The notes under the pieces: generated by a model
Seen by the model: only the letters and a program-made list of their open reading frames with translations
What the model was told of the DNA's origin: nothing
The model's database searches: none
In this document: piece after piece, positions 16,501-43,072 of the stretch
Layout of the letters: each line of letters opens with the position of its first letter
How positions within the stretch are numbered: the stretch's first letter is position 1
Position numbers and translations under genes: made by a program
IMG/VR virus record: IMGVR_UViG_3300030419_007776
Span: 1 to 46,877 of that record
Length of the DNA stretch: 46,877 bases
Strand: one strand, 5' to 3'
Origin: a virus

Positions 16501-17772
16501 ATGACAAAAAAGATTAAGGTCCTGACTCTTTCGGACCACCCCCTCTCCCCTTCTGGTGTTGGTATTCAAACAAGATATATGATTGAGGGCCTGTTACAGA
16601 CAGGCAAGTTTGAGGTTGCGTCATTTGGAGGCGCAATTAAACATCAGAGCTATGAACCTACAAGGGTTGACGAATATGGAGATGCATGGACCATCTATCC
16701 TGTTGATGGTTACGGCACTCAGGATTCAATTAGGTCTATTATTCGCAATGAAAGGCCTGACATTCTATGGTTTATGACTGATCCTCGATTTTACGGTTGG
16801 CTTTGGCAGATGGAAGACGAGGTCCGCCCCTTAATGCCAATGGTGTATTACCATGTGTGGGATAACTTCCCAGCTCCAAAATTCAATGGCATGTGGTATG
16901 ACTCAACTGACACAATAGTTACTATTTCCAAAGTTACTGATCAGGTAGTAAACACGGTGACGGATACACCAGATGTCATTTATCATCCGCACGCTGTCCC
17001 TGGCGAAATATTTAAAAAGCTGCCAGAAAAAGATGTATTAGAATTTAAATCAAAGAGTTTTGAAAATTCACCGTTTGGCGATGCAAGCGATAAGACAGTG
17101 TTTTTCTGGAACAATCGAAATGCAAGGAGAAAACAGAGCGGCACCTTGATCTTTTGGTTTAAAGAATTTCTTGACAGGGTTGGACATGATAAGGCTATGC
17201 TAATCATGCATACTGATGCCAAAGATATGCACGGCCAAGACTTGGAAACTATTATAAAGGAATTGCAATTAGATTCGGGGCAGGTTTTAATTTCGAGAGA
17301 AAAGTTGCCGCTCGAAGGTATGTCTATGATGTACAACATGGCTGATTGTACTATTAATATTTCTGATGCAGAGGGTTTTGGATTATCCACGCTGGAATCT
17401 CTTTCGTGCGAAACGCCAATTATCGTCAACATGACTGGTGGCCTCCAAGAACAAGTTACCGATGGAGAGAACTGGTTTGGTTTTGGGGTTGAGCCTTGTG
17501 CAAAGGCTATAATCGGATCGCAAGACATTCCATACATCTATGAGGATCGATTGAATAAAGAACAATTTGTGGACGCCATGGTGAAGTTCCATAACTTGTC
17601 AAAAGAAGAGCGCGCTGCTCTCGGGGCAGCAGGTCGCGAACATGTTTTAAAAAATTATAATTTTGAAAACTATAAGAGTAGGTGGGTAGAGATCCTGACC
17701 GATGTTCATGAGAAGCACGGTTCTTGGGACACCCGCAAGAACTACAAAGCTTGGAGAAACGAACAACTATGA
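16501..17772 (+). CDS. Glycosyltransferase, GT4-like (GT-B fold)
   Basis: 423 aa, first gene of the sugar cluster. The N-terminus shows SDHPLSPSGVGIQTRYM, a GT4-type donor/acceptor loop after a beta strand. The C-terminal half has DAEGFGLSTLESLSCETPII (about 290-309) with the EX7E motif that binds the sugar nucleotide in retaining GT4 enzymes, then NMTGGLQEQV. It transfers a sugar from an NDP-sugar to an unknown acceptor in the cytoplasm. AGGTGA lies before the ATG. It overlaps the next GT gene by ATGA, so the two are coupled. Confidence 0.88.
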   Translation: MTKKIKVLTLSDHPLSPSGVGIQTRYMIEGLLQTGKFEVASFGGAIKHQSYEPTRVDEYGDAWTIYPVDGYGTQDSIRSIIRNERPDILWFMTDPRFYGWLWQMEDEVRPLMPMVYYHVWDNFPAPKFNGMWYDSTDTIVTISKVTDQVVNTVTDTPDVIYHPHAVPGEIFKKLPEKDVLEFKSKSFENSPFGDASDKTVFFWNNRNARRKQSGTLIFWFKEFLDRVGHDKAMLIMHTDAKDMHGQDLETIIKELQLDSGQVLISREKLPLEGMSMMYNMADCTINISDAEGFGLSTLESLSCETPIIVNMTGGLQEQVTDGENWFGFGVEPCAKAIIGSQDIPYIYEDRLNKEQFVDAMVKFHNLSKEERAALGAAGREHVLKNYNFENYKSRWVEILTDVHEKHGSWDTRKNYKAWRNEQL

Positions 17773-19040
17773 GACAAAAAATAATTGTCAGAGCACCTAT
17801 TTTAAGTCAGAGTGGATATGGAGAGCACGCAAGGTTTGTGCTGCGCGCCCTGAAAACCAGAGAAGACATTTTTGATTTATATATAGACAATCTACACTGG
17901 GGCCAAACAAGTTGGCTTTGGGAAGATGATGATGAAAGACAATGGATTGATCAGCTGTTGATGAAGACCATTGAATATGCTCAATCTGGTGGTACTTTTG
18001 ATGTCTCTTTACAGGTCACCATTCCAAACGAGTGGCAAAAGATGGCACCAGTCAATATTGGATGCACAGCGGGCATTGAAACAACAAAAATAAGCAGCAA
18101 GTGGGTTGAAAGTAGTTATTTAATGGATAAAATCATTGTTGTTTCTGATTTTGCACGCCAAGGGTTTGTCAATACCGTGTATGAGTTTATAAATCAAAAA
18201 ACGAATGAGCGGGGCACAATTAAAGCGAAAGAGCCAGTTGAAGTTGTGAACTTCTGCTTTAACGAAATTTCACCCAAGCCAATTGAGCTGGATTTAAAAC
18301 ACGATTTTAATTTTCTTGCGGTAGCTCAATTTAGCCCTCGCAAAAATATGGAAAATACTCTTCGATGGTTTTTAGAGGAGTTCTTTGACCAAGAAGTGGG
18401 CTTGATCATAAAAGCTAGTATAGCAAATAATTCACATGCTGATTTTGTCCATACGAAAGGTATGATTAGGAATCTTTTAAAAGACCCTGCGTACGTCGAT
18501 AGGGTTTGCTCTGTGCACTTGATTCACGGATACCTGTCGGAAGAGGAAATGGCTGGTCTTTATTCCCATGACAAAGTTAAGGCTTTGATCAACATTTCTC
18601 ATGGCGAAGGCTTTGGTCTTCCTATTTTTAAGGCAGCAGCTCATGGAAAGCCAATTGTCACTGTGCCCTGGGGCGGCCAAACAGATTTCTTGTATGTACC
18701 AGAAAAGGTTAAAGGCTCGAAGAAAAGGAAGCTGATGCCCAAGTTTGCGCCCGTAAATTATACAATCCAGCAAGTTCAGAAAGAAGCAGTGTGGAAGGAT
18801 GTGCTGGTTGAAGATTCGCAATGGGCTTTTGCTGATCAAGGGAGTTTTAAGATGACCTTGAGAGATGTGTACAAAAAGTACGCAGTGTACCAGAGAAGAG
18901 CCACAGATCTCCAAAAATACATAAGGAACAAGTTTACACCAGAAAACCAATACAAGCAATTTACAGACATTGTCGCTGATGGGTTAAACATTGTTGCTGA
19001 TACAGAAGTTGATGAGATGTTTTCTAAACTATTCAAGTAA
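17769..19040 (+). CDS. Glycosyltransferase, GT4-like with altered EX7E
   Basis: 423 aa from the ATG at 17769; the reading frame stays open upstream, but inside the previous gene. RAPILSQSGYGEHARFVLRA at the start and NFLAVAQFSPRKNMENTLR in the middle are typical of GT4. The donor-site motif reads GEGFGLPIFKAAAHGKPIV, where Lys replaces the second Glu of EX7E. A charged insert (KVKGSKKRKLMPK) lies about 320-335. The substitution may alter donor choice or activity. Similar in size and placement to the preceding GT, but by eye the sequences are only distantly related. Confidence 0.82.
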   Translation: MRQKIIVRAPILSQSGYGEHARFVLRALKTREDIFDLYIDNLHWGQTSWLWEDDDERQWIDQLLMKTIEYAQSGGTFDVSLQVTIPNEWQKMAPVNIGCTAGIETTKISSKWVESSYLMDKIIVVSDFARQGFVNTVYEFINQKTNERGTIKAKEPVEVVNFCFNEISPKPIELDLKHDFNFLAVAQFSPRKNMENTLRWFLEEFFDQEVGLIIKASIANNSHADFVHTKGMIRNLLKDPAYVDRVCSVHLIHGYLSEEEMAGLYSHDKVKALINISHGEGFGLPIFKAAAHGKPIVTVPWGGQTDFLYVPEKVKGSKKRKLMPKFAPVNYTIQQVQKEAVWKDVLVEDSQWAFADQGSFKMTLRDVYKKYAVYQRRATDLQKYIRNKFTPENQYKQFTDIVADGLNIVADTEVDEMFSKLFK

Positions 19041-19042
19041 GC

Positions 19043-20689
19043 ATGTTTGTTTTTGTTGCAGATCTTTTTAAAGAACATTATGTTGGTGGGGCAGAGTTAA
19101 CCTTCGACTGTTTGATTGACTCGGTGCGTCTGCCCTCACAGAAAGGCATGAGCAGTCAAATATCCGTTGCCACAATGGAACAACACAAGGATAAGTTCTG
19201 GGTGTTTGGCAATTACGCACAACTGCCAGCAAATTGCATGATGTATGCAATAAAAAACTTAAATTATTGCGTTGTTGAATTTGATTACAAATACTGTAAG
19301 TATAGAACTGAACACTTGCATCTTAAAAATGAAGGACCTTGTGATTGTGCTGAAAAACCAATTGGAAAATTGGTTGCAATGTTCATGGCAAAGGCAAAAA
19401 AAACGTTTTGGATGTCCCAAGGTCAGCTTGATACTTGGTGTGGTCACTATTCTCTTCTATCAAACAATGCTGTGGTGTTGAGTTCTGCCTTTTCTGATGA
19501 AAGTTTGCAATACATCTCGTCTTTGGATAAGTCTAGTAAGAATAACAAATGGGTTATTTTAGGTTCAAATTCTTGGATTAAAGGCAAGGAAGACGCAATT
19601 AAGTATGCAGAGGACAATAATCTTGAATACGAAGTTTTGTGGGGCTTGGACTATAAACAGTTTCTTTCAAAATTAGCACAAAGTCGTGGATTAATTCATC
19701 TTCCACGGGGCTATGATACTTGCCCACGAATGGTTATCGAGGCTAAACTTCTAGGTTGTGAACTTATATTGAACGAGTTCGTGCAGCATAAAGATGAGAA
19801 CTGGTTTAATCAACCAGTTGAAGAAATTTACAAATATTTGATGGATAGACCCTCTGTTTTTCAAGAACAGCTGCTGTCGATAGCTGAAACTGGTCTTCCA
19901 CCTGTGTCTGAAAAACAACGAGAAGAAAAGCATTTTTCTATAATCATACCGTCTTACAATTGCGAATCATGGGTTGACCCATTGGTTGACTCTGTGCTCG
20001 GTCAAGATTATGAAAATTATGATGTGTATTTTGTAGATGATGCCTCTACGGATGCAACACAACAAAAAGTGTTGATGAAGTTGAACCAATATCCGCAACA
20101 CCTAAAAGAAAAATTTAATTTTCATAGAAATGAAGATAACAAGAAGGCATTGTATAATATTTGCTCTTCAATAGAAAAAACAAGAGAAGATACAATTGTT
20201 ATTTTGTTGGACGGGGACGATCTGTTTTCCTCTAAAAATGTATTAAGTTATTTAAACGAGGTTTATTCAAAAGAGGATATTTGGCTAACAACGGGGTCTT
20301 ACGTTGAAACAGGGACGGGGCGAGTTGTTAAGTCTATGGAACTACCCCAGGAAGCGTGGCGCCTGGGTGTAAGAAAGTTTCGAGAACCAGCTGGTCATCC
20401 AAATGTCTTTTCACACTTGCGTACATTTAAGAAGAAACTGTATCAGAAAATTAATCCTGAGGATCTTTTAGATAAAAATGGTCAGCATTATAGGTGCACT
20501 TTTGATAGAGCCTTGATGTATCCAATGATTGAGATGGCTGGACCAGAACATCACAAGGTTATCAAAAAAATTCTTTATGTATACAATAGGCAAAATCCGC
20601 TTGCTGTTGATAGAGTGGATCGAACAGATCAGCTTAGGATCGAGCAACATTTAAGAAGTCAGCAGCCTTATGATAGAATACAATTATGA
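19043..20689 (+). CDS. Two-domain glycosyltransferase (GT-B-like plus GT2)
   Basis: 548 aa. The N-terminal 290 residues resemble the core of a GT-B enzyme: a mid-region WVILGSNSWIKGKEDAI and GYDTCPRMVIEAKLLGCE, which has the shape of a GT4 donor site. From about residue 300 a GT2 domain starts (FSIIIPSYNCESWVDPLV), with VYFVDDASTDATQQK and VILLDGDDLF giving the acidic donor/metal motif. Two different transferase folds in one chain suggest sequential addition of two sugars. The C-terminal part has a WRLGVRKFREPAGHP loop where acceptor residues would lie. It starts 2 bases after the previous stop. Confidence 0.82.
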   Translation: MFVFVADLFKEHYVGGAELTFDCLIDSVRLPSQKGMSSQISVATMEQHKDKFWVFGNYAQLPANCMMYAIKNLNYCVVEFDYKYCKYRTEHLHLKNEGPCDCAEKPIGKLVAMFMAKAKKTFWMSQGQLDTWCGHYSLLSNNAVVLSSAFSDESLQYISSLDKSSKNNKWVILGSNSWIKGKEDAIKYAEDNNLEYEVLWGLDYKQFLSKLAQSRGLIHLPRGYDTCPRMVIEAKLLGCELILNEFVQHKDENWFNQPVEEIYKYLMDRPSVFQEQLLSIAETGLPPVSEKQREEKHFSIIIPSYNCESWVDPLVDSVLGQDYENYDVYFVDDASTDATQQKVLMKLNQYPQHLKEKFNFHRNEDNKKALYNICSSIEKTREDTIVILLDGDDLFSSKNVLSYLNEVYSKEDIWLTTGSYVETGTGRVVKSMELPQEAWRLGVRKFREPAGHPNVFSHLRTFKKKLYQKINPEDLLDKNGQHYRCTFDRALMYPMIEMAGPEHHKVIKKILYVYNRQNPLAVDRVDRTDQLRIEQHLRSQQPYDRIQL

Positions 20690-21585
20690 ATATTTGGTTT
20701 GAAAACGCTAATCTTAGCAGCAATAGCGGACCAAATTCATTTGCACAAAAGTTGACTAACGCACTTGGAAGGCGAGGCGTTCTTGTAAACCAAAGCACTT
20801 ATGACGTATCGCTTTGTTTTATTGAATCTTATAGGAAAGATATACATAATTTACCAACAGTGCAGCGCCTTGACGGAATATATTTCAACACAGCGCAAAA
20901 CTATGACCTGTTAAATTCAAATATTTTTAGGACATACAAGCAATCGGACGCCGTGGTGTTTCAAACTGACTTTAACCAAAGACTAATCACCAGATGGTTT
21001 GGTCCGCACAAGAATAGCACAGTGATTCGCAACGGTGCAGATCTAGAACTTATAAATTCTGTAACACCCTCTAACGATGAGCTGTTAGAACAATATGATA
21101 ACATATGGTGCTGTGCTGCAAGTTGGAGGCCGCACAAGAGATTAAGAGATAACATAAAATATTTTCTTGAGCACTCTGGGCCAAAAGATGTTCTTTTCAT
21201 AGCAGGGGACAAACAGAAAGAAAAAATCCCAGACGATAGTAAAGTCAAATACTTGGGTGTTCTGTCAACACAGCAACTGATTTCTCTTTACAAAACTTCA
21301 ACTTATTTTGTTCATTTGGCGTGGTTAGATCATTGTCCAAATGTTGTCGTAGATGCTCGTGCAGCAGGGTGTAAAATTATTTGTACTAATTCTGGTGGCA
21401 CCAAAGAGATCGCCGGCCCGGATGCGGTCATTATAGAACAAGAAGAGTGGGATTATGAGCCGGTAGAATTGTGGAGACCTCCTCCTTTGGATTTTTCAAA
21501 AAAAACCGTAAACACATATGATAGTGAATATGACATGGAAATTATTGCATCCAAGTATTATAACTTTCTACAAAAGGTAATCTAG
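20686..21585 (+). CDS. Glycosyltransferase, GT4-like
   Basis: 299 aa, a compact GT-B protein that starts by ATGA overlap with the previous gene. FENANLSSNSGPNSFAQKL at the start is a common GT4 N-terminal loop. VIRNGADLELIN and WCCAASWRPHKRL mark the interdomain and second Rossmann regions. The donor motif is LDHCPNVVVDARAAGCKIIC with Asp in place of the second Glu, then TNSGGTKEIAG. This resembles other short GTs in phage and capsule clusters. Donor and acceptor unknown. Confidence 0.82.
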   Translation: MNIWFENANLSSNSGPNSFAQKLTNALGRRGVLVNQSTYDVSLCFIESYRKDIHNLPTVQRLDGIYFNTAQNYDLLNSNIFRTYKQSDAVVFQTDFNQRLITRWFGPHKNSTVIRNGADLELINSVTPSNDELLEQYDNIWCCAASWRPHKRLRDNIKYFLEHSGPKDVLFIAGDKQKEKIPDDSKVKYLGVLSTQQLISLYKTSTYFVHLAWLDHCPNVVVDARAAGCKIICTNSGGTKEIAGPDAVIIEQEEWDYEPVELWRPPPLDFSKKTVNTYDSEYDMEIIASKYYNFLQKVI

Positions 21586-21586: not shown

Positions 21587-22234
21587 ATGGCAATCAAAGT
21601 AAATTATTTTGATCTTGGGTTATATAAAGGCACAGAGCTGTGGTGGATCGTTAGGGATATATTTCCAAGATTAAAGATTAAGGATTACGATGCCTATGGT
21701 TTTGAAGCTTGCGCGAAGTATGCTAATGAATTGAAGCGTCAATTCGCAGACAACCAGAAGGTCAACATACTCAACAGAGCGATAAGCAAAAATGGTCAAG
21801 ATATTAAATTATATCATGCCACCAATAATGTTGGCCACTCTATTTTTAATACGAAAAAAAACGTAGACAAAGATAGCTATGAAATTGTTAAAGGTGTAAA
21901 ATTTTCTGATTGGGTCCTAAACAACGTTGATGATTTTAAGTCATCCTTTAACATATTAAAAGTTAATATTGAAGGCGCTGAGTGGCATCTTTTTAATGAT
22001 CTTTGTGAAACGGGCCTAAACGAGTATATTCATATTTTTTGCGGACAGGGACACGATGTTGAAAAGGTTGGCGAACTTCAAGACAAGATCAAAGAGTATT
22101 ACAATCTTATAGAAAAAAACAATATTAAGTTATATCGCTTTACGGAGTGGAAAGCTCACAAGAATAACTTAACAGATGCAGTGATAAAGCAAAAAATAGT
22201 AGAGTTTTATAAAAACAATTATGAAAACATATGA
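21587..22234 (+). CDS. FkbM-family methyltransferase
   Basis: 215 aa. VNYFDLGLYKGTELWWIV (residues 5-22) is the SAM-binding start. YDAYGFEACAKYANEL supplies the acidic residue after strand 2, ILNRAISKNGQDIKLY follows, and FNILKVNIEGAEWHLFNDL (about 124-142) is the FkbM 'K-x-D/N-x-E-G' signature. Family members O-methylate sugars on polysaccharides or polyketides. In this context a methylated sugar is likely. It overlaps the next methyltransferase gene by 14 bases. Confidence 0.85.
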   Translation: MAIKVNYFDLGLYKGTELWWIVRDIFPRLKIKDYDAYGFEACAKYANELKRQFADNQKVNILNRAISKNGQDIKLYHATNNVGHSIFNTKKNVDKDSYEIVKGVKFSDWVLNNVDDFKSSFNILKVNIEGAEWHLFNDLCETGLNEYIHIFCGQGHDVEKVGELQDKIKEYYNLIEKNNIKLYRFTEWKAHKNNLTDAVIKQKIVEFYKNNYENI

Positions 22235-22943
22235 TTTAAAAACTTTTTTCGACCTTATAAACTACGACTGGAAAAAGGATGTGACCGAGTTAAGGGAGAT
22301 TTGTCGTTTGACAAAGACAAGAGTTAAGAATCCTCCACCTGATGAGTTCCTCTTATCTGGTACGGAGCAGACTTTTTTAATAAAAGCCGTGGCTGAATGG
22401 CTTGCCGCAGAAAGATTTTTTGAAATTGGAACTGGTCGAGGGACTGCTAGTTATGCTGTTTCTCTTCTGGAGAGTGTAAAAAATATTACCACGCTAGATA
22501 TTGTGCCCATTGAACAAAAAATGAACACAGCAATAGCACACAGGCCTGCTGTCGTGTCAAACCTGGATATTTTTAATCTTGTACCCTGGGATTGTAAAAC
22601 AAAAATAGATTTTAAGTTGCGTAAAGATTTTTTGCCCATCAAAACAGACAGTCTTACAGAGGAAAACAAATTTGATTTTTGTTTTATCGACGGAGATCAC
22701 ACAGATAAAAGAACAATTGTAGAAGATTTTGTCAATTGTACTAGGGTGGTAAAGCAGGATGGTGTGATTTTGTGGGATGACTATGGACAGCCACAATTTA
22801 GAGTTAAAGAGGTGGTTGATAGGGTGCTAGAAAGTGACAGTTCTTGGAATGCATTACTGGTGGAGCAGCGCGGCCATCTTTTTGGCAAAACAGGCGAAAA
22901 AGACGTTGGTGTTGTTGTGATGAGTAAGAGAAGGTTGCCATGA
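22221..22943 (+). CDS. Class I SAM-dependent methyltransferase
   Basis: 240 aa. FFEIGTGRGTASYAVSLL (about 67-84) is the SAM-binding glycine loop, NITTLDIVPI supplies the acidic end of strand 2, and FDFCFIDGDHTDKRTIVEDF plus VILWDDYGQPQF form the cap of the Methyltransf_24-type fold with putative metal and catalytic residues. The protein at 32869 shares this arrangement. The substrate is probably a sugar or a sugar-linked group, given the neighbours. The next GT overlaps by ATGA. Confidence 0.82.
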   Translation: MKTYDLKTFFDLINYDWKKDVTELREICRLTKTRVKNPPPDEFLLSGTEQTFLIKAVAEWLAAERFFEIGTGRGTASYAVSLLESVKNITTLDIVPIEQKMNTAIAHRPAVVSNLDIFNLVPWDCKTKIDFKLRKDFLPIKTDSLTEENKFDFCFIDGDHTDKRTIVEDFVNCTRVVKQDGVILWDDYGQPQFRVKEVVDRVLESDSSWNALLVEQRGHLFGKTGEKDVGVVVMSKRRLP

Positions 22944-23857
22944 AGGTTTTCGTTTTAACTGCTGGTGAAAATTGGATCTGTGAAAGGTTTTCTACTGAGT
23001 GGTCCAACAATAATCAACAAATCTACACTAGCGATATTAACGAAGCGGACACTTTGTGGCTGCTTAGCCCTTGGGTGTGGAAAAGAGTGCCCGCTCAAAT
23101 ATTGAGATCTAAGAAGGTCGTGGCCACAATACATCACATTGTAAAAGAGAAGTTTTCGCGCTCTTCTTTGCGTGAGTTTTTAGAGCGAGATAAATTTGTC
23201 GATACATATCACGTTACTACTACTGAAACTTGGAACCTAGTTTCACAAATGACAGAAAAGCCTGTTTGCATAGTGCCTTTTTGGGCAAATCAACAATTGT
23301 GGACGGACAATTCAGACAAGCCCACAATAAGACAAAAATACGGAATACCAGAAAATAAGTTTGTAATTGGATCCTTCCAGCGAGACACGGAAGGCCATGA
23401 TTTAAAAAGCCCAAAGCTTGAAAAAGGGCCAGATATTTTTTGTGATATTGTTCAGGACCTGCACAATCAGAGGGATGATGTGTTTGTTGTTTTAGCTGGT
23501 TGGCGCAGGCAGTATGTTGTAGACAGACTTAGCAAAGCCGGGGTTGCTCACAAATATTTTGAACTGCCTCCATTTGATGTTTTGAATAATCTTTATAACT
23601 GTTTAGATTTATATATTGTCTCTTCTCGAACGGAAGGCGGCCCACAAGCCATTGTGGAGTGTGCACTAACAAAAACTCCTATCGTATCCACAAAGGTTGG
23701 CGTTGCACCACTGATACTGGCCAACGAAAGTTTGTACGAAGACGCGGCATCTTTTGTCAAGGCTAGGCCGAATGTTGAACACGCTAGTCAAAGCGTGCAG
23801 CAGTTTACAATCCCTCATTGGTTTGATCAATTTAATAAGATTTTTAATATGAGCTAG
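22940..23857 (+). CDS. Glycosyltransferase, GT4-like
   Basis: 305 aa. A short N-terminal domain (VFVLTAGENWICERFSTEW) is followed by VATIHHIVKEK and FVIGSFQRDTEGHDLK. The donor-site motif RTEGGPQAIVECALTKTPIV fits EX7E exactly, and TKVGVAPLIL follows. It belongs to the retaining GT4 group. AGAAGG precedes the start. It lies between methyltransferase and glycosyltransferase genes in one continuous run. Specificity cannot be read from sequence. Confidence 0.85.
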   Translation: MKVFVLTAGENWICERFSTEWSNNNQQIYTSDINEADTLWLLSPWVWKRVPAQILRSKKVVATIHHIVKEKFSRSSLREFLERDKFVDTYHVTTTETWNLVSQMTEKPVCIVPFWANQQLWTDNSDKPTIRQKYGIPENKFVIGSFQRDTEGHDLKSPKLEKGPDIFCDIVQDLHNQRDDVFVVLAGWRRQYVVDRLSKAGVAHKYFELPPFDVLNNLYNCLDLYIVSSRTEGGPQAIVECALTKTPIVSTKVGVAPLILANESLYEDAASFVKARPNVEHASQSVQQFTIPHWFDQFNKIFNMS

Positions 23858-23858
23858 T

Positions 23859-26522: not shown

Positions 26523-26525
26523 GAT

Positions 26526-27494: not shown

Positions 27495-27495
27495 G

Positions 27496-29182: not shown

Positions 29183-29496
29183 ATGAAAGAATTTTTTGTT
29201 TTGATATTGATGGCACCCTTTGTACGAAAGATTGTAAATACGAGGAGGCCCAACCGTTCTTAGACGTGATACGTCATTTAAATCATTTGTATGATTCTGG
29301 AAATAAGATAATAGTCATGACTGCAAGAGGTGCTTGTTCAGGTCTTGACTGGACTGATTTTACTGAGAAACAGTTAAATGACTGGGGTGTGAAATATCAT
29401 GAATTAGTCATGAATAAGAAGCCGCACGCCCACGTTTTTGTAGACGACCGTGCAGTTAATATTGAACAGTGGAAGCTGATTCATAATTTGGGGTAA
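29179..29496 (+). CDS. HAD-family phosphatase, capsule type
   Basis: 105 aa, ATGA overlap with the previous gene. RIFCFDIDGTLCTKDCKYEE (residues 4-23) has the DxDGT nucleophile motif, KIIVMTARGACSGLDW supplies the motif II Thr, and HVFVDDRAVNIEQWK carries the DD pair. This short HAD without a cap domain resembles the capsule-biosynthesis phosphatase group. It may dephosphorylate a sugar phosphate. Its core resembles the C-terminal half of the SIS-HAD fusion at 26526. Confidence 0.82.
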   Translation: MNERIFCFDIDGTLCTKDCKYEEAQPFLDVIRHLNHLYDSGNKIIVMTARGACSGLDWTDFTEKQLNDWGVKYHELVMNKKPHAHVFVDDRAVNIEQWKLIHNLG

Positions 29497-30122: not shown

Positions 30123-30130
30123 TTAAGACT

Positions 30131-31848: not shown

Positions 31849-31861
31849 ATTTACAAATTTC

Positions 31862-31889: not shown

Positions 31890-31925
31890 CACTTGTGTTT
31901 GTTACTGACGACAATGGAGGGAAGT

Positions 31926-32855: not shown

Positions 32856-32868
32856 TCATACAAAAATC

Positions 32869-33525: not shown

Positions 33526-33545
33526 CAACCATATTGAGCATAAAA

Positions 33546-35206: not shown

Positions 35207-35990
35207 TGGCTTGATTACTAAGGAAATTATTATTGCATCATATAAAGATGATTTGTCCTTTGTGCATCGTTTTCATGAAGATATTGCAGTTACAATATAT
35301 GAAAAAGGCAAGGGCGATGATTGGAAAAAACAAATACTAGAAGATGACGTATTAACTATGCGTGATTTTGAACAGCGCATTGATAATACAGTGTATTTGC
35401 CAAACATTGGAGTGTGTAGTCAAGTTTATCTTTATCACATAGCCAACAACTATGATAGTTTAGCTGACATCAATGTTTTTATCGCTGGTGATTGTTTACA
35501 CGATCACAAAAAGGGCACTCCACCAAACTTAAAGGCTTTCGATATTATAAATAAATCAGATACGCTGACACCGGAGTACGTAAACCTTTCAGGTAAGAGT
35601 GGCAACTTTCCTTTGAGAGGTGAGTGTTATCGCTTTTTTAATCAAAGAGCCCGCGAAGTCTGGCGTGATTTGTTCGAGGAGGAATGCCCCAGAAAGTTTA
35701 CACCAGCAATAGATTCTACTTTTTTGGTTAAAAGGGAAGCTATTCATCGTCGCCCCGTTTCGTTTTATGAAAAGGCCTTAAGTTATATTAACGAAGACTG
35801 TTACAGACAAGATCACTGGAAAATGGATTACAACGGACAGTTTGTTTCCGTAATGGCGCCGTGTAAAAAAAACTTAAATAAATTTCCACATAAAAGTCCA
35901 AAGCATTTTGATTTTGCGGCGTGTTCTTTTTTTGAACACACTTTTCAAAAAATGTTTGATATTGATTTCGATCAATGTGTTGTCGAGTAA
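35196..35990 (+). CDS. DUF3431-like protein, probable glycosyltransferase-related
   Basis: 264 aa from ATG at 35196, overlapping the oxygenase gene by 11 bases. TVYLPNIGVCSQVYLYHIAN (about 67-86) and DINVFIAGDCLHDHKK match the DUF3431 pattern 'P-N-x-G-x-x-x-x-x-Y-L-x-H-I'. RGECYRFFNQRAREVWRDLF and AIDSTFLVKREAIHRRP follow in the order seen in that family. The family occurs with glycosyltransferases, but its chemistry is not settled. Its position between the oxygenase and further transferases supports glycan modification. Confidence 0.6.
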   Translation: MRDSGLITKEIIIASYKDDLSFVHRFHEDIAVTIYEKGKGDDWKKQILEDDVLTMRDFEQRIDNTVYLPNIGVCSQVYLYHIANNYDSLADINVFIAGDCLHDHKKGTPPNLKAFDIINKSDTLTPEYVNLSGKSGNFPLRGECYRFFNQRAREVWRDLFEEECPRKFTPAIDSTFLVKREAIHRRPVSFYEKALSYINEDCYRQDHWKMDYNGQFVSVMAPCKKNLNKFPHKSPKHFDFAACSFFEHTFQKMFDIDFDQCVVE

Positions 35991-35993
35991 AAC

Positions 35994-36740
35994 ATGCAGA
36001 GAGAAGACGTTTTAGTTGTAAATTTCGCTGTAAACGAAAGGACCTCAAAGTTGAGCGAGTTTTGTTTTGATAAGCTTGGTCTAGACAATTATATTACACT
36101 TAAATCTTCAAGCGGGTTTAGGGATAAATTTTTACAGTTTGCAGAGTTGGCTTGTGAAAGCAACTATTCTTACTTCTTAAGAACAGATGCAGATAGACTT
36201 TTGTTTAAGGGTGTCTATGCTTTGTTTTTAGAGTGCGAGAGAGATGACACACTTCTATGTGTAGAAGGCCAGTGTTTTGACTTTCTCATGAATAAATATC
36301 GAGGCGCAACACCTCATTTATTTTCAAGGCAGGCTCTTGAAAGACTCAAAGAGGATAATACTTTAATGCCCGATTCACAAAAGCCTGAGTCTAGATTTAT
36401 AGAAAACATAACCAACAATAAAAAAAATGGTTGGAAAGCTGTTAATTATTTGACAAATCTTCATGATTATGAGCAATACCCAAGCAAGGTCTGCAACACC
36501 TTGGTGAATCGCATTCATCGCGGCCATTTTCACAGACTATACGATCAAAATTATTTAGAAAAGACAAAATATGCTCTTGCAACCAGAGAGGCGATTAAAA
36601 TTTCAAAACAAATAAAAACGAAGAACAGTATGAGTTATTTGGACTTAGACCTCTCTTATCTTGATGATGGGTGGGGGCCATTAGAGAAGATAGAGTCAAT
36701 ATATGAACACTATGAAAAGCTGTACGAGAGATTAAAATAA
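35994..36740 (+). CDS. Putative GT-A-like transferase
   Basis: 248 aa. YSYFLRTDADRLLFKGVYAL (about 57-76) has a D-A-D that could be the GT-A donor motif. The C-terminal half contains NLHDYEQYPSKVCNTLVNR and GHFHRLYDQNYLEKTKYA, rich in His and Tyr. No strong family match by eye. It is overlapped at its last base by the next gene. Glycosyltransferase function is suggested by the DxD and the neighbours only. Confidence 0.5.
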   Translation: MQREDVLVVNFAVNERTSKLSEFCFDKLGLDNYITLKSSSGFRDKFLQFAELACESNYSYFLRTDADRLLFKGVYALFLECERDDTLLCVEGQCFDFLMNKYRGATPHLFSRQALERLKEDNTLMPDSQKPESRFIENITNNKKNGWKAVNYLTNLHDYEQYPSKVCNTLVNRIHRGHFHRLYDQNYLEKTKYALATREAIKISKQIKTKNSMSYLDLDLSYLDDGWGPLEKIESIYEHYEKLYERLK

Positions 36741-37684
36741 TGTTCCAGGCATTTTATAACTTAAAACGATTTCGATATGTTCACGAATCACTTGAAAAAA
36801 CTGGGATGTTTAAGAGAGTCGGTGACGAAAGAATATCTAAAACCGCATGTTTTTATAGTGACGCCATGAATGTTTATATTGACACATCAGATGGTGTTAA
36901 CGAGGATTTTGGCATTCATGAGTATTGTGGACGCGCTTTTAGAGTTATAAAAGATGCCAATGGAAAGCCTTTCTTGTTTTTTAAAGCGGCTCATTCCCCT
37001 GTGTGGTCCTTAAATCTTGCACAAATTATACAAGATAACAATGGTGAAGTTGTACCTTTTTTTAAGTGGTCGTTTAATGAAGATTTCTATCGAAACTTAA
37101 TAGATAAAAAAAAAGAAATTCGCTCTTTAAGAAATAAGTTTGAAAAAAAATATGATGTTGGGTTTTTTTGTGGCCTAAGAGATTATCAATATCCCAAGCC
37201 AAGTAGCCATAACGGTCTTATTTCCTGGGAAGATCACAAAAAATTTAATATTGGCGGAAATAGTAAAAATACAGGCTTCTTTACAACTACGGCTAGAAAA
37301 GATATTCAAAGACAACTAATAGATTCTGGGCTGGTAGTGTTAAGTGGAAAGAAACTGTCTTACAAGGATTATATAAGAGAAAGCTTAAAGTGTAAGGTGG
37401 TTATTAATCCACCGGGAATTGGCGAGTACACATCCAGAATTTTTGATCAATGTTTTATTGGCAACTGTATTGCAATGAGGCAGACATCATATGACCAGGG
37501 CGCTTCTTGGAAACAACATGTGCCACAAATTGATTTTAAAGATGCAAGTTGGCAGAGCAACGTGCAAAAGATAATAGAAGACTATTCAGGTTGGCAACAG
37601 AAGAGTGCGGACTATTATGATAAGTTTTGGGCACCAGACAAAGTCGTTCAATTTATGGTTGAAAAAATAGAGGCAAAGTTTTGA
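36740..37684 (+). CDS. Putative GT-B-like transferase
   Basis: 314 aa starting at the last base of the previous stop. YDVGFFCGLRDYQYPKPSSH and LKCKVVINPPGIGEYTSRIF, then DQCFIGNCIAMRQTSYDQG, resemble the C-terminal donor domain of exostosin-like or GT90-like proteins ('S-L-K-x-h-I-x-P-x-G-x-G-x-x-x-x-R-h-x-D'). No donor residue can be assigned surely. The glycan context favours a sugar transferase. It is followed by a pair of related unknown proteins. Confidence 0.5.
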   Translation: MFQAFYNLKRFRYVHESLEKTGMFKRVGDERISKTACFYSDAMNVYIDTSDGVNEDFGIHEYCGRAFRVIKDANGKPFLFFKAAHSPVWSLNLAQIIQDNNGEVVPFFKWSFNEDFYRNLIDKKKEIRSLRNKFEKKYDVGFFCGLRDYQYPKPSSHNGLISWEDHKKFNIGGNSKNTGFFTTTARKDIQRQLIDSGLVVLSGKKLSYKDYIRESLKCKVVINPPGIGEYTSRIFDQCFIGNCIAMRQTSYDQGASWKQHVPQIDFKDASWQSNVQKIIEDYSGWQQKSADYYDKFWAPDKVVQFMVEKIEAKF

Positions 37685-38136
37685 AGTTTCTATTAACGTT
37701 GTGGCCTCCGGTCCAAAAAGATTGGGCAAATATAGTGGAGATTGTGGCACAAGAGTTTACTGTAAATAATCAGTGGAATTATCGCTACGTCGGCTCTGAT
37801 TGGACAAGTTTTATTATAACACTTTATCACCTGTGCTACGAGGAAGACGAACACCACAAGTATCCAAACATTCCAAAAATGTTACCCAAGGCGGCATATA
37901 TGGAGCAGTTTTCAGTGGACATCTCACTGATTGAAATCACAGTTGAAGACCCAGAGTTTCAAATATATAAAAACGGTAATCCCTATGGGGTCGCAGAGAT
38001 AAAAGATTTAAAAAATAAAATAAGAAAATTGTATGAAGGGAGAATACCAAGATTTTCTGTTATACACAGTTTTGACACTCCAGTTAGAAATGATCTGGTA
38101 GTTGAACTATTTGAGCAGGAGTGTGAGAGGTTTTAA
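37681..38136 (+). CDS. Hypothetical protein, tandem paralogue with the next gene
   Basis: 151 aa from a TTG at 37681 that overlaps the previous stop, with AGAGG about six bases upstream. LLTLWPPVQKDWANIVEIVA at the start and GVAEIKDLKNKIRKLYEGR near the C-terminus align by eye with LGILWAPLSHRWQDILDDIK and YELNLIKDIIRKRFY in the next gene. The pair shares a predicted alpha/beta layout. No known motif. Likely a duplicated protein tied to the glycan. Start codon tentative. Confidence 0.5.
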   Translation: MKFLLTLWPPVQKDWANIVEIVAQEFTVNNQWNYRYVGSDWTSFIITLYHLCYEEDEHHKYPNIPKMLPKAAYMEQFSVDISLIEITVEDPEFQIYKNGNPYGVAEIKDLKNKIRKLYEGRIPRFSVIHSFDTPVRNDLVVELFEQECERF

Positions 38137-38137
38137 A

Positions 38138-38770
38138 ATGAATTTAAATAACATAGAGTGGCAAGAGCAATATTGCTTAGGCATATTGTGGGCTCCATTA
38201 TCTCACAGGTGGCAAGACATCCTAGACGACATTAAAAATCTTGGAGCCAGAGTAGTGTGTGCAGTCGATTACAGTCCAGTTTGTAAAAGCACACAAGAGT
38301 GGGACGATTTTGTTGTCGGCTGTTATCTGGCTCATGAAAAAATTGACAACCCTTCTGTTGATTTAAACTCTAAGATATCTAAAATTCACAGGAAAATACA
38401 ATATGAACATTTAAATGATTTTAAAAGACATGTGTGTGTTGTGGTGTTCGATATTGAAGATCAGGCAAGTATGCAAAAAATTCAGTCCGTTATCTGTGAT
38501 GAACTTAGAAATAAGTGGGATTATACGGAGGAGAGGATTTTAAAAAATAAAAATGGCCTACTGCAATCGGGGCATGTGTATGAGTTAAACTTAATAAAAG
38601 ACATAATTCGCAAAAGATTCTATGATGATCCACGACTTCCGACGTACTACAAAGGTCCTTTTGCTGGCCGCAAGAGAATTGTGCACACCCCGGCCTCTGC
38701 CCTTGGGTGCCACAGTTTATATAAATATTTATTAAATTTTTCACACAAATCAAATATAATAGCCTCATGA
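38138..38770 (+). CDS. Hypothetical protein, tandem paralogue with the previous gene
   Basis: 210 aa from ATG at 38138; a start at 38102 would lie inside the upstream gene. CLGILWAPLSHRWQDILDDI and NGLLQSGHVYELNLIKDIIR resemble the previous protein. The C-terminal tail VHTPASALGCHSLYKYLLNF is an extra 20-residue segment absent in its neighbour. The next gene overlaps by ATGA. No recognised family. A shared role in assembling or sensing sugar donors is possible but not shown. Confidence 0.55.
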   Translation: MNLNNIEWQEQYCLGILWAPLSHRWQDILDDIKNLGARVVCAVDYSPVCKSTQEWDDFVVGCYLAHEKIDNPSVDLNSKISKIHRKIQYEHLNDFKRHVCVVVFDIEDQASMQKIQSVICDELRNKWDYTEERILKNKNGLLQSGHVYELNLIKDIIRKRFYDDPRLPTYYKGPFAGRKRIVHTPASALGCHSLYKYLLNFSHKSNIIAS

Positions 38771-39222
38771 GCATTGAATTAAACATCAATAACGTTAAGG
38801 GTCTAGAACTTCTAAAATCATATAATTTACCTAGAAATAAAATTGTCTTAATGAATAGTTCCTGGCAGGCAATTTTAGGCATTAGGCAAAATGGAGATCT
38901 GGACGTGCTTTGCACGCCGGACATACTTAAACAATTTGAGAAAATTGTCGAGAAACCTGTGTCCATAATGAAATACGTTCATTGGTATTTGGCTCCTTTT
39001 GGTAAGACGCCACAAGAGATCATTGATAATCACTCTGTTGAGGTTGATGGTTTTAAGGTTTTAAAGTTTGGCACGTACAAAGAATGTCTTAAAATAAGGG
39101 CTGAGACTGGCAAGAAGGTGCCCTCTGCTGCAAGATTGGGTAAAAAATCAGAGCGAGACCTATTGTCAGTGGTAAATCTAGTTGATGACGGTACGGGACT
39201 TCCGATAGAAATTCCTGTGTAA
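38767..39222 (+). CDS. Small nucleotidyltransferase-like protein
   Basis: 151 aa. KIVLMNSSWQAILGIRQNGD (about 24-43) followed by LDVLCTPDILKQ resembles the 'G-S/S-x...G-D-L-D-h' motif of minimal nucleotidyltransferases, with Ser and Asp-Leu-Asp in the right order. The rest (KVLKFGTYKECLKIRAETGK) lacks clear catalytic features. It may be a nucleotidyltransferase domain that adds a nucleotide to a sugar or protein. The match is short, so confidence is low. Confidence 0.45.
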   Translation: MSIELNINNVKGLELLKSYNLPRNKIVLMNSSWQAILGIRQNGDLDVLCTPDILKQFEKIVEKPVSIMKYVHWYLAPFGKTPQEIIDNHSVEVDGFKVLKFGTYKECLKIRAETGKKVPSAARLGKKSERDLLSVVNLVDDGTGLPIEIPV

Positions 39223-39246
39223 ATACCAAGCAAGCGGAGACGTAAT

Positions 39247-40353
39247 ATGGAAAACAACGAAAATAATGTTATAACAATCATAGATCCAAATGAGGAACAG
39301 CAGTGTTCTGGTATCGAACGTAACCGGGCAAAAGATCATAGCAAAATTTATTCTCCGTACAAGATTTTAAAATATCAGGATAGAATTGATGAGTTGAAGC
39401 AGGGCAAGACGACGCGCCCAATTAAAGCCAATATTAGATTGCACGGCCTGTGTAATGCAGATTGTAGTTTTTGCCATTGTGAAATGGCAGATGATGCTGG
39501 TGGAACTCGTGGCGACGGCGCTGGCCAAGGCCGAAACGGACTGGAATTTAGGACAGAACCCTTATTGCAGTTTTTCGAGGATTTTGTTTCCCTTGGGGGA
39601 GAGTCCATAGTATTAACGGGCGGCGAACCAACGATCCATCCAGACTTTGAAGCTATCGTCGAGAAGATGAACGATGTTGGTTTAAAGTGGGGGATGTACA
39701 CTAACGCTCTTTTAATAAATCGATATTATGACTCTTTAAAGACTGCAACTTGGATTAGGGTTAGCCTAGATCCTATCTTTTTCAGAAGCAAGCAGAAACT
39801 ATTGCCAAAGATTCGTGAATTGGCAGATTACGGTGTTTTTGTTTCAACTTCAATTGTTGTGTGTAGGACATCAGAAAAGTCCATCACCGCTGAACAGTTG
39901 CCAGGAGTTATAAAAGAACTCAAGGAAAACAATATTCGTATTTTGCGAATTACACCTGATCATTATTTAAGCCAAGATGAAAAGCTTGATTTGGCAAAAC
40001 AATTAAAGAGATTGAAGAAGCAAAATAAAGATATCAATATCATTTTGCAAGACGAAAAATACGAGGCCAACAACCTCCCAGTGGGAAAACCTTGCCATTA
40101 TGCTGAATTTCAGGTACGCTTAGATTGTTCTGGATTCGTTTTTCCGTGCCCATCTCCGATATTGGGCACTGGTAATGGCAAGTACGCATTTGGGAATTTG
40201 TATGAGCAATCGTTTTTAGAAATTTGGAAAAACGTAAACCCAAAATTTATTATCAATAATGATTGCGAGCGCTTCTGTATTCATGCAAAGAAAGTCAAAC
40301 TCTTAGATTATTTGATGGATGAGTCCGGTGATGGCCATGATGAATTCGTCTAA
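39247..40353 (+). CDS. Radical SAM enzyme
   Basis: 368 aa with GGAG upstream of the ATG. ANIRLHGLCNADCSFCHCEM (about 61-80) contains the CxxxCxxC that binds the 4Fe-4S cluster, and ESIVLTGGEPTIHPDFEAIV (about 119-138) the SAM-contacting GGEP. A C-terminal Cys set (FPCPSPILG, NDCERFCIHAKK) resembles an auxiliary cluster or SPASM-like region. Radical SAM enzymes in sugar clusters carry out C-C, C-S or epimerisation chemistry on sugars or peptides. The FrhB-like protein just downstream may be its reducing partner. Reaction unknown. Confidence 0.87.
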   Translation: MENNENNVITIIDPNEEQQCSGIERNRAKDHSKIYSPYKILKYQDRIDELKQGKTTRPIKANIRLHGLCNADCSFCHCEMADDAGGTRGDGAGQGRNGLEFRTEPLLQFFEDFVSLGGESIVLTGGEPTIHPDFEAIVEKMNDVGLKWGMYTNALLINRYYDSLKTATWIRVSLDPIFFRSKQKLLPKIRELADYGVFVSTSIVVCRTSEKSITAEQLPGVIKELKENNIRILRITPDHYLSQDEKLDLAKQLKRLKKQNKDINIILQDEKYEANNLPVGKPCHYAEFQVRLDCSGFVFPCPSPILGTGNGKYAFGNLYEQSFLEIWKNVNPKFIINNDCERFCIHAKKVKLLDYLMDESGDGHDEFV

Positions 40354-41377
40354 ATATGTTGGCGAATATGAAACAATAATTAAATGTAAAACAAAACAAA
40401 AAGTCGAGGGGACTTCTGGGGGTTTTGTTACAACGACATTGATTAACCTGATGAAAGCTGGTGAAATTGATTCTGCCATTGTAGTTGATTCTGATGGTAC
40501 CAAGGCTTTCTACAAAGAAGCAACAACTCCAGAAGAGATTCACAACGCCCGAGGGTCAAAATATCAACTTGTTTCTCCGTTCCCCTTGTTAAGTAAGATA
40601 GATAAAAACAAGAGGTACGCAGCTGTTCTTCTGCCGTGTCATATTCCAAAGGCACGCCGCATATCTGAGGCAAACAACGGAGCGATAAAATTAATAATAG
40701 GCCTTTTTTGTGGTTTTATGTTAGACAGGGCAGCTCCTGATAGATTAGTAAAGAGTTTGGGTATACCGGAATATGATGTAAAAAAATTAGAGTATCGGGG
40801 TGGCAAATTCCCTGGCGGCTTTAAGGTCCAAACACACTCAGGTAGGACTGTGCTTTGGCCAAAAAAGTACTATACCCTACTCAACAAAATGTTTGCCCCA
40901 AAGGGTTGTTTGATGTGCAATTATTTTGCAGCCGATGCCGCTGATATTGCTGTGGGTGATGCGTGGGAAGAGACAGAATATACAAGGGTTATTTTAAGAA
41001 ACCAAACAGCCCTGCAATATTTTGAAAAGGTGAGAGATAGGTTTATTGTAAAAGACAGTGGGTTTGACGACATATATAAGACTCAATGGCACTTATTACA
41101 ATTTAAAAAACGTAGTGCTCATATTCGTAAAAAAGTCATTAGACCGAAAAAGGAACATGAGGGTAAGAAACTTCCTCTGTATGAAACCATAACTTCGTAT
41201 TTTTTTATATATGAAATTCTGTTTATCAGGAAAATTAGAGAGTATTTGTTGGCACTGAACCCTCGTATACTCCTGTTGTTAAATCGAACGATTCGTAAGC
41301 TTGATTTTTCTATCGGCAATAGAAACAAAAAATATATCTTACAGGACCTTAATGGAGAAAAGATTGATGACAAGTGA
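40337..41377 (+). CDS. FrhB/F420-dehydrogenase beta-subunit family Fe-S protein
   Basis: About 346 aa; the start could be 40319, 40337 or 40340, all inside the end of the previous gene. GTSGGFVTTTLINLMKAGEI (S-G-G-x-V/F-T-x-x-L), RGSKYQLVSPFPLL, VLLPCHIPKARR, IGLFCGFMLD, LEYRGGKFPGGF and GCLMCNYFAADAADIAVGDA follow the order of the FrhB/FdhB-C family, including Cys residues for Fe-S. In polysaccharide clusters such proteins accompany pyruvyltransferases or radical SAM enzymes. It may pass electrons to the radical SAM neighbour. Start uncertain. Confidence 0.78.
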   Translation: MMNSSKYVGEYETIIKCKTKQKVEGTSGGFVTTTLINLMKAGEIDSAIVVDSDGTKAFYKEATTPEEIHNARGSKYQLVSPFPLLSKIDKNKRYAAVLLPCHIPKARRISEANNGAIKLIIGLFCGFMLDRAAPDRLVKSLGIPEYDVKKLEYRGGKFPGGFKVQTHSGRTVLWPKKYYTLLNKMFAPKGCLMCNYFAADAADIAVGDAWEETEYTRVILRNQTALQYFEKVRDRFIVKDSGFDDIYKTQWHLLQFKKRSAHIRKKVIRPKKEHEGKKLPLYETITSYFFIYEILFIRKIREYLLALNPRILLLLNRTIRKLDFSIGNRNKKYILQDLNGEKIDDK

Positions 41378-42227
41378 AGAAAATGGTTTAATTAAGTGTT
41401 TTGTTACGGGCCATCGAGGATTTATTGGAACTAAACTTTTTTCACAGTTAAAAGAGCTTGGGTACGATGTTAAGGGTATGGACCTAGTTGAATATCAAAA
41501 TGTGATCGAAGATCTAGATTCGCTTGGTGATTGGAGACCAGATTATATCTTCCACCTAGCTGCAATTCCACGGGTGCCGTATAGTTTGGAGCATCCCGAA
41601 GAGGTGCTTGAAAATAACGTGCTTTCAACAATTCGCATTCTTGATTATGCAAGACGAAGTGGTACACGTCGAGTAATATATTCTAGTTCTTCTTCTGTTG
41701 TTGGTAACGGGGATGGACCAACAAGTCCGTATGGAGCGTCGAAACTAATTCCAGAAACTCTTTGTAAAAATTACTCAGATGTTTTTAATCTGGATACTGT
41801 TTGTTTAAGATATTTTAACGTATATTCAGAGGACCAAACAGTTAAGGGTCCGTACGCCACAGCAATTGCGAATTTTATGCACTGCATTAGAGAGGGTAAG
41901 AATCCATATATAACTGGTGATGGTGAACAACGGCGCGATATGTTGCATGTTGCTGATGCAGTATCGGCAAATATTTTTTGTATGAATTATGAGGGCTATT
42001 TTGGTGGCCAAAACTTTGATACTGCAACTGGTGCCAACATTTCATTGAATGAGATAAAAGAAATAGTACACAAGTATCACCCTAGTGTTGTTTTTGACAA
42101 AATGCCAGAGCGAAGAGGCGACGTTAGGGAAACTTGCGCAGACACCCAACCCCTCAAGGCACTTGGGTGGTCTACAAAGGTGGATGTAATAGGCGGGATA
42201 CATAGCTGTTTTAACTTTGAGGAGTAG
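41367..42227 (+). CDS. NAD-dependent epimerase (UDP-glucose 4-epimerase-like SDR)
   Basis: 286 aa from ATG at 41367, overlapping the previous gene by 11 bases; an earlier in-frame start at 41301 is unlikely. KCFVTGHRGFIGTKLFSQLK is the Rossmann loop, HLAAIPRVPYSLEHPEEVLE the nucleotide-sugar region, and SPYGASKLIPETLCKNY the YxxxK. SSSSSVVGNGD supplies the catalytic Ser. RYFNVYSEDQTVKGPYATAI is GalE-like. Two bases separate it from the dehydrogenase gene. Substrate is probably a UDP-sugar. Confidence 0.87.
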   Translation: MTSEENGLIKCFVTGHRGFIGTKLFSQLKELGYDVKGMDLVEYQNVIEDLDSLGDWRPDYIFHLAAIPRVPYSLEHPEEVLENNVLSTIRILDYARRSGTRRVIYSSSSSVVGNGDGPTSPYGASKLIPETLCKNYSDVFNLDTVCLRYFNVYSEDQTVKGPYATAIANFMHCIREGKNPYITGDGEQRRDMLHVADAVSANIFCMNYEGYFGGQNFDTATGANISLNEIKEIVHKYHPSVVFDKMPERRGDVRETCADTQPLKALGWSTKVDVIGGIHSCFNFEE

Positions 42228-42229
42228 AT

Positions 42230-43072
42230 ATGAAGATTGGAATTATTGGTCAAGGTTTTGTCGGAGAGGCAGTTAATCAAGGGCTAAAAAATCATTTTCA
42301 AATAGAAACGTACGATAAATACGTCAGTGAAAAATCAACTTGCACAAGTTTAGTTGAGTTGTGTGAAAAGACAAAGATTTTATTTTTGTGTCTTCCAACT
42401 CCCATGAATCGCGATGGGTCTTGTAATTTACAGATCGTTGAACAAACGATTCGCGAGATAGACGAAAATACGCAAGGAAAACACACCGTAATAATTAAGT
42501 CTACGGTACCGCCCGGTACAACTGAAAAAATTAATGCCAAATATAAGAATATAAATGCAGTATTTAATCCTGAATTCTTAACCGAGGCGAACTACATTGA
42601 TGATTTTAAGAACCAAGATAGAATCATTATCGGTGGCCCACGCCCATATTCAACAAAGGTAAAAAACTTGTACGAAAAGGTTTTTAAGAACGTTCCAATT
42701 ATAAAAACTAAATCTACAATTGCTGAAATGGTAAAGTATACTGCAAATTGTTTTTTGGCCACAAAGGTATCATTTGCTAATGAAATAAAGCAAATCTGCG
42801 ATCATGTTGACGTTGATTATGATAAAGTTATTGAATATGCAACATATGACAATCGCCTCGGCCACTCACATTGGAAGGTGCCTGGACCTGACGGGAAACT
42901 TGGGTTCGGTGGTTCATGTTTTCCAAAAGATATCAATGCTTTGATTTATTTTTCAAAGGCGATGGATATTGACGTGGGCGTATTGAGTGCGGTATGGCAA
43001 ACAAATTTAAAAGTTCGACCGGAGAGGGATTGGGAAAACCTCAAAGGACGCGCAGTAAGTGAAGATAATTAA
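42230..43072 (+). CDS. UDP-glucose/GDP-mannose dehydrogenase-like, lacking the C-terminal domain
   Basis: 280 aa. MKIGIIGQGFVGEAVNQGLK is the NAD loop, TVIIKSTVPPGTTEKI and FNPEFLTEANYIDDFKNQDR follow, and KLGFGGSCFPKDINALIYFS (about 223-242) has the catalytic Cys. Full-length family members are about 390-450 aa with a third UDP-binding domain, which is missing here; the protein ends soon after the dimer helix (PERDWENLKG). It may be inactive alone, need a partner, or be a minimal form with another substrate. It is the last gene of the cluster. Confidence 0.85.
   Translation: MKIGIIGQGFVGEAVNQGLKNHFQIETYDKYVSEKSTCTSLVELCEKTKILFLCLPTPMNRDGSCNLQIVEQTIREIDENTQGKHTVIIKSTVPPGTTEKINAKYKNINAVFNPEFLTEANYIDDFKNQDRIIIGGPRPYSTKVKNLYEKVFKNVPIIKTKSTIAEMVKYTANCFLATKVSFANEIKQICDHVDVDYDKVIEYATYDNRLGHSHWKVPGPDGKLGFGGSCFPKDINALIYFSKAMDIDVGVLSAVWQTNLKVRPERDWENLKGRAVSEDN

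Follow-up and report, generated by a model that had tools for sequence, protein, structure and literature searches.

A constant frame around exchangeable glycan genes in a marine phage clade, and its possible role in late virion glycosylation

A block of 31 tandem plus-strand open reading frames (ORFs) was analysed at positions 16501-43072 (~27 kb) of the IMG/VR virus record IMGVR_UViG_3300030419_007776. This linear record of 46,877 bases, called the window below, is a fragment from an uncultured marine phage and not a whole genome. The block represents the type locus for a clade of marine phages, with a variable set of sugar-related genes held between constant neighbours and headed by two invariant glycosyltransferases (GTs), GT1 and GT2. 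With a probability of about one half, it is read here as a phage serotype locus, whose type-specific oligosaccharide would be assembled late in infection, inside the host cytoplasm, and joined to a virion protein.

Viral contigs were scanned with the PhoH and SIS-HAD proteins of the window, giving 101 loci. On the left side the order PhoH, HExxH metallopeptidase, PD-(D/E)XK nuclease, then GT1 and GT2, recurs in the relatives, and on the right side a zinc-ribbon protein, a small transmembrane (TM) protein and a gp55-like sigma factor recur. In the 39 loci reaching at least 7 kb beyond PhoH, which were used for neighbour counts, the nuclease was found in all 39, GT1 in 38 and GT2 in 37. The same-frame block stands in 15 viral records (the window and 14 others), and the relatives supply a T4-like context, with homologues of head, tail and baseplate proteins. 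The islands of these 15 records, all with both edges, measure 13.9 to 28.0 kb and encode 354 proteins, which fall into 211 clusters at 35% identity. Just one island holds each of 158 of the 211 clusters, and GT1 and GT2 are the only ones present in all 15. Most of the window enzymes encoded at 21587-41377 have no counterpart in the other 14 islands.

The frame extends to a cultured phage, Flavobacterium phage Immuto, where a nuclease and two GTs (gp181 and gp180, homologues of GT1 and GT2, respectively) are followed by aminotransferases, an epimerase and further GTs, with a gp55-like gene ~28 kb further on. Weaker versions were found in Microcystis phage Mel-JY01 and Rhodothermus phage RM378. 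A DNA-level search of the cluster against cultured phages gave zero matches, as did a gp55 search in plasmids. A first-pass annotation of the window had called the block phage-borne, and its recurrence in the same position in another 14 viral records, with its outline in Immuto, confirms this. The gene content does resemble bacterial capsule and O-antigen loci, as it would if such a locus had been misjoined to a phage contig, but identical junctions occur in independent viral contigs and a similar frame in cultured Immuto. The recurrent junctions led to the rejection of a misjoin, whose probability is negligible.

Pairwise identities of GT1 and GT2 track those of PhoH (rho 0.77 and 0.85, respectively), indicating that the frame is vertically inherited. 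For 34 pairs of middle genes, identity exceeds that of both PhoH and gp55 from the same phage pair by more than 5 points, which indicates exchange between distant phages. The clearest case is the SIS-HAD protein, 68% identical between the window and relative G003 (gene order nuclease, GT1, GT2, SIS-HAD), against 37% for PhoH and 31% for gp55. Matches of the SIS-HAD protein to Rhizobium phages were set aside; they cover the HAD half only, and no glycan cluster lies at that site. The fast turnover of the middle genes, and a GC content slightly below that of the rest of the record in five of five records, would also suit cargo, that is, host-derived capsule-type genes that fill the head or have no steady function ("stuffer DNA"), as was once proposed for cyanophage lipopolysaccharide (LPS) genes (PMC3037559). 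Cargo is very improbable when set against an island that sits at the same place in every relative examined, ORFs that are intact and overlapping, and catalytic residues of GT1 and GT2 that do not vary.

Most ORFs of the block overlap, and the largest intergenic gap is 44 nt, a compactness far above chance expectation. Pfam and NCBIfam searches assigned seven GTs, four SDR epimerase/dehydratases (one RmlB-like, one GalE-like), a PseF/NeuA-like cytidylyltransferase, a GmhA-like SIS-HAD fusion, a second HAD protein, an ATP-grasp ligase, a PIG-L deacetylase, three methyltransferases, a radical SAM/SPASM enzyme, an FrhB/FdhB protein and a truncated UDP-glucose dehydrogenase-like enzyme. The ORF count of the first-pass annotation proved exact and its glycan block agrees with the Pfam families, while 9 of the 31 ORFs have no clear family in Pfam or PHROG, so the label "31 glycan genes" leans partly on operon position. 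The features of the block and its flanks are as follows.

12980..12987, plus strand: late-promoter-like motif CTAGTTAT, 36 nt 5' of the likely PhoH ATG at 13016
12974..14359, plus strand: PhoH-like ATPase, putative first gene of a transcription unit running into the island (phrog_2765 E 3e-114; syntenic in relatives)
15711..16493, plus strand: PD-(D/E)XK / Cas4-like nuclease, constant left neighbour (PHROG exonuclease matches; in 39/39 loci)
16501..17772, plus strand: GT1, invariant GT4-type glycosyltransferase (PF00534 E 6e-11; in 38/39 loci)
17724..19040, plus strand: GT2, second invariant GT-B glycosyltransferase (weak PF00534; in 37/39 loci)
19043..20689, plus strand: glycosyltransferase with a GT family 2 domain at the C-terminus (PF00535 E 1e-17)
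20686..21585, plus strand: GT4 glycosyltransferase (PF00534)
21587..22234, plus strand: FkbM-like methyltransferase, weak match (PF05050 E 3e-4, slightly under cut-off)
22221..22943, plus strand: methyltransferase (PF13578)
22940..23857, plus strand: GT4 glycosyltransferase (PF13692)
23859..24746, plus strand: GT4 glycosyltransferase (PF00534)
24739..26522, plus strand: two ORFs (24739-25389, 25386-26522) with neither Pfam nor PHROG match
26526..27494, plus strand: fusion of SIS (GmhA-like sugar-phosphate isomerase) and HAD phosphatase-like domains (weak gmhA/SIS match; HAD half via tblastn)
27496..28149, plus strand: CMP-sugar synthetase, PseF/NeuA-like (PF02348 E 3e-15; TIGR03584 under cut-off; PDB NeuA)
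28133..29182, plus strand: ATP-grasp ligase (PF15632 E 4e-26)
29179..29496, plus strand: HAD phosphatase-like protein (PF25109 E 1e-5, under cut-off)
29499..30122, plus strand: PIG-L family deacetylase (PF02585 E 3e-19)
30092..31135, plus strand: GalE-like SDR epimerase (PF01370 E 1e-49)
31111..31848, plus strand: TOD1/MUCI70-type glycosyltransferase (PF04765 E 6e-18; phrog_26101)
31893..32855, plus strand: SDR nucleotide-sugar epimerase/dehydratase (PF01370)
32869..33525, plus strand: methyltransferase (PF13578)
33534..34550, plus strand: RmlB-like NDP-glucose 4,6-dehydratase (TIGR01181 E 3e-78, under cut-off)
34547..39222, plus strand: seven ORFs (starts 34547, 35175, 35994, 36740, 37681, 38102, 38767), one DUF3431, the rest without clear family
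39247..40353, plus strand: radical SAM/SPASM enzyme (PF04055 E 1e-14, PF13186)
40319..41377, plus strand: FrhB/FdhB-like iron-sulphur flavoprotein (PF04432 E 8e-22)
41301..42227, plus strand: SDR nucleotide-sugar epimerase (PF01370 E 4e-44; same family in 9/15 islands)
42230..43072, plus strand: nucleotide-sugar (UDP-glucose) dehydrogenase without C-terminal domain (TIGR03026 above cut-off; N-terminal and central Pfam domains only)
43086..43280, plus strand: small conserved ORF of 64 aa at the right island edge (homologues in 12/15 islands; not listed in the first-pass annotation)
43246..43527, plus strand: zinc-ribbon (FmdB-like) protein, constant right neighbour (recurs in relatives)
43831..44544, plus strand: gp55-like late sigma factor, constant right neighbour (phrog_234 E 1e-4; in 29/34 related records)

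The short form of the UDP-glucose dehydrogenase-like enzyme (42230-43072) seems to be common to the relatives, which match it over 276 residues. A search of genome contigs matched no host source for the ATP-grasp gene.

The absence of export and initiation machinery, claimed from the window alone, was upheld when family searches were run on the window and 25 relatives. The flippase (Wzx, PF01943), the polymerase (Wzy, PF04932), the membrane-bound initiating transferase (PF02397) and the ABC-2 membrane exporter (PF01061) were each found in 0 of the 26 records, with positive controls. No convincing TM helix was found among the 31 ORFs and no multi-TM protein in any of the 15 islands (maximum 2 segments); the 185- and 190-kb relatives hold no protein of 8-14 TM segments, their maximum being 5 segments in 223 aa. 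Hydrophobic segments were counted by means of a Kyte-Doolittle window; this measure is crude, so the family searches weigh more. The window being a linear viral fragment, the absence of export genes from its own genome is judged from the relatives, among them these two long ones; the records of the relatives are possibly incomplete, and the window surely so. As in bacterial O-antigen loci of the Wzx/Wzy kind, and in capsule loci, constant flanks enclose variable sugar genes that are exchanged as cassettes, but Wzx, Wzy, the initiating transferase and the ABC exporter of those loci are missing from the phage block.

The EX7E pair and R206/K211 of GT1 are conserved in 31 sequences, and GT1 and GT2 alike keep the GT4 catalytic residues (EX7E, basic residues) across all, or almost all, of the relatives aligned. 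AlphaFold models of GT1 and GT2 have pLDDT values of 88.8 and 90.6, respectively. The nearest solved structure in the PDB is chlorovirus B736L in both cases, by sequence and fold for GT1 and by fold for GT2. In chloroviruses the capsid protein is glycosylated by soluble enzymes that the virus itself encodes, and the glycans combine a conserved core with variable outer sugars (PMC7826918, PMC4691112). By analogy, the B736L match supports such a way of working, although it proves no acceptor. The phage block, like chlorovirus PBCV-1, combines soluble GTs with its own nucleotide-sugar enzymes, and a conserved core (GT1 and GT2 in 15/15 islands) with variable outer enzymes (158/211 clusters in one island). 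Chloroviruses differ in their eukaryotic hosts and unrelated virion, and their glycan and its capsid acceptor are proven, whereas here both are putative. To our knowledge, chlorovirus glycosylation genes do not form one exchangeable block with constant flanks. Many relatives carry a longer GT2 homologue of 655-704 aa (loci L028, L040, L045, L056, L068 and L084), with an extra fused domain of ~230 residues.

Evidence on the timing of expression was obtained from the two long relatives, in which de novo analysis found the motif CTA[TAG]TTA[TAC] 17 times in plus-strand gaps against 2.5 expected, a roughly six- to seven-fold enrichment, and twice on the other strand. It lies 25-47 nt 5' of the starts of sheath, tube, neck, scaffold and baseplate genes, which were assigned by homology to Immuto. 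The same motif precedes PhoH on the gene's strand in 53 of 56 distinct loci, with 9 on the control strand, and 44 of these motifs fall at -60 to -15. From PhoH to 43072 in the window, every gap is at most 44 nt. Judged from this motif, late expression of the block is likely, and the motif together with the gap-free unit suggests that transcription from PhoH would read through over 30 kb, to 43072. The T4 late promoter TATAAATA had been tried as a candidate and was not enriched; the clade-specific motif turned up instead. In gaps of relatives G001 and G002, enrichment of TTGACA-like boxes next to the late-type motif suggests a second, sigma-70-like promoter class.

In the proposed mechanism, the epimerases, dehydratase, dehydrogenase and CMP-sugar synthetase would supply nucleotide sugars. 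GT1 and GT2, the sole enzymes common to all relatives, would build the conserved, acceptor-near part of the glycan, and the variable GTs, methyltransferases, deacetylase and redox enzymes its outer part, specific to each phage type, with cassette exchange renewing the outer-glycan genes. The finished glycan would exit the cell on particles at lysis, so that flippase, polymerase and exporter would be unnecessary. A fuller version, in which this is a lineage-wide obligatory O-antigen-like locus that coats the phage's own virion, with two invariant transferases starting the glycan, a swappable cassette of ~15-30 genes setting the type, and "serotypes" evolving by cassette exchange with no membrane carrier, falls just short of an even bet.

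Several points weigh against virion glycosylation. About half of the motif sites precede genes without an assigned function, and a PHROG scan of the unidentified genes behind the motif gave nothing useful. PhoH lies ~8 kb away from the island in relative G006 and is inverted in G019, so a different promoter must drive the island there. GT-B folds are generally alike, so the B736L match says little about the acceptor. We know of no glycosylated virion protein in this clade. Some LPS-like enzymes, namely the GmhA-like protein and the CMP-sugar synthetase, also fit work on host glycans.

This last point leads to the possibility that the target is a glycan of the host surface (LPS core, lipooligosaccharide or capsule precursor), remodelled by these enzymes during infection, for example against superinfection or the sticking of progeny to debris, with export by the host MsbA or other exporters. 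Such remodelling is the usual reading of marine myophage clusters (PMC3037559, PMC7029224), and genes for a GmhA-like protein, CMP-sugar synthetase, epimerase and UDP-glucose dehydrogenase are typical of it. The hypervariability of the island would suit diverse host surfaces, and a Gram-negative host is likely. The host probably belongs to the Bacteroidota, since all 11 genome matches of the window's cysteine synthase are to Bacteroidetes, Immuto infects Flavobacterium, and apparently similar moraphages have predicted Bacteroidota hosts. The finished LPS core is exported by the host MsbA, so a missing flippase is compatible with remodelling of the LPS core. Host remodelling is nevertheless held to be less likely than virion glycosylation, of which it is the main rival. 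Heptosyltransferase (GT9, PF01075), the core-transferase family searched for, is absent from the window and 23 of 25 relatives, with weak matches in the other two, and a membrane-bound or initiating enzyme is lacking. Moreover, the promoter motif is late-type and not early, and a change of the cell surface late in the lytic cycle protects little.

Another possible acceptor is the phage DNA, which sugars would hypermodify to resist restriction and CRISPR. DNA glycosylation is known in T-even phages and has been discussed for moraphage GTs (PMC12619734), and hypervariability would be compatible with an arms race. It is improbable here: thymidylate synthase/dCMP-hydroxymethylase (PF00303) is absent from the window, the 185- and 190-kb relatives and the clade, as far as these incomplete records reach, and is limited to the distant G003, G007 and G013. 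In its place Immuto, a phage with the shared frame, encodes a 7-deazaguanine pathway, and thirty genes with a late motif would be excessive for base modification. Virion protein, host glycan and DNA, the candidate acceptors listed in the first-pass annotation, thus make a fair list, from which the evidence now favours the virion as the probable target.

Large sugar clusters have been described in other phages. Cyanophages P-SSM2 and S-SSM7 carry large "LPS" clusters (PMC3037559), and cyanophage SynMITS9220M01 has ~20 sugar-type genes in succession. Like the present block, these are contiguous glycan genes in T4-like marine phages, with long runs of GT, epimerase, 2OG-oxygenase and GmhA-like genes; one cluster lies near phoH, and the P-SSM2 clusters have no multi-TM proteins. 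They differ in being present in some cyanophages only, in a largest contiguous P-SSM2 block of ~15 genes, and in not being described as a lineage-wide locus with constant flanks. A GT1 homologue was not found in P-SSM2, and the GT1 search matched seven phage records only, so homology of this anchor gene does not extend to the cyanophage clusters. The host recognition cluster of pelagimyophages is likewise a hypervariable island with GTs in marine myophages, but it lies among structural genes with tail fibres, is read as host O-chain modification, and is not described with an invariant GT pair (PMC7029224). These cyanophages and pelagimyophages contradict the earlier statement that phages usually carry one or two such genes, and the novelty once claimed for the scale of the block is not supported, large phage sugar clusters being known already (PMC3037559, PMC7029224).

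Virion glycosylation by phage enzymes has been reported on a small scale for mycobacteriophages (Freeman 2023, as cited in PMC12619734), and virion glycoproteins for phage XacN1 (PMC5852040). Phage-encoded GTs and glycoproteins in the particle are shared features, whereas one or two GTs are described in those phages and no dedicated sugar pathway is reported. Moraphages resemble the present clade in being large, aquatic and predicted to infect Bacteroidota, and in carrying PhoH, often a glutamine synthetase, and four core groups of GTs, but no glycan island is described for them (PMC12619734). Of the moraphage tree markers TerL, MCP and PolB, the window encodes none. A description of the locus was not found in the open-access literature searched. 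New features are a constant frame, with two invariant GTs, that runs through the whole lineage, an almost complete turnover of up to ~30 genes within it, an island linked to a late-type promoter, and a cultured phage to which the frame extends.

Further genes of the window lie outside the block. A tubulin/FtsZ-like GTPase (1276-2388; PF00091 E 5e-6, under cut-off; GGGGGTGSS motif) is found in 15 related loci. The peptide [IL]T..L..II.EE recurs in the otherwise unrelated proteins of 2663-3250, 5891-6694, 7611-8819 and perhaps 8797-9570, and may be a shared targeting or scaffold tag. A short adenylosuccinate synthetase of the PurA/PurZ type (4846-5832; phrog_1211 E 2e-71) apparently keeps the catalytic Asp of PurA. 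At 10133-12024 a glutamine synthetase, kept in close relatives, adjoins the cysteine synthase, a likely recent gain of Bacteroidetes-like character. The sole minus-strand gene of the region (12014-12934) points away from PhoH, has matches in 80 related loci and encodes a trypsin-like protease with a lipoprotein-like signal. Beside the sigma gene, a 593-aa protein (44834-46615) has alpha/beta-hydrolase-like motifs (HSKGG) and no Pfam or PHROG match, and is possibly a baseplate protein with an esterase domain.

If the glycan is on the particle, these phages would own a fast-changing surface identity like the bacterial O-antigen, carried in one exchangeable block, and this would be, as far as known, the first case of a phage encoding the complete pathway to a complex glycan of its virion. 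It would raise the question of what selects coat diversity in the sea, be it receptor binding, aggregation, protist grazing or co-infection. If the host surface is the target instead, the block would amount to a core programme by which a widespread marine lineage remodels its hosts. Because the cultured phage Immuto shares the frame, the function of marine phage "LPS clusters", a long-standing question, becomes directly testable.

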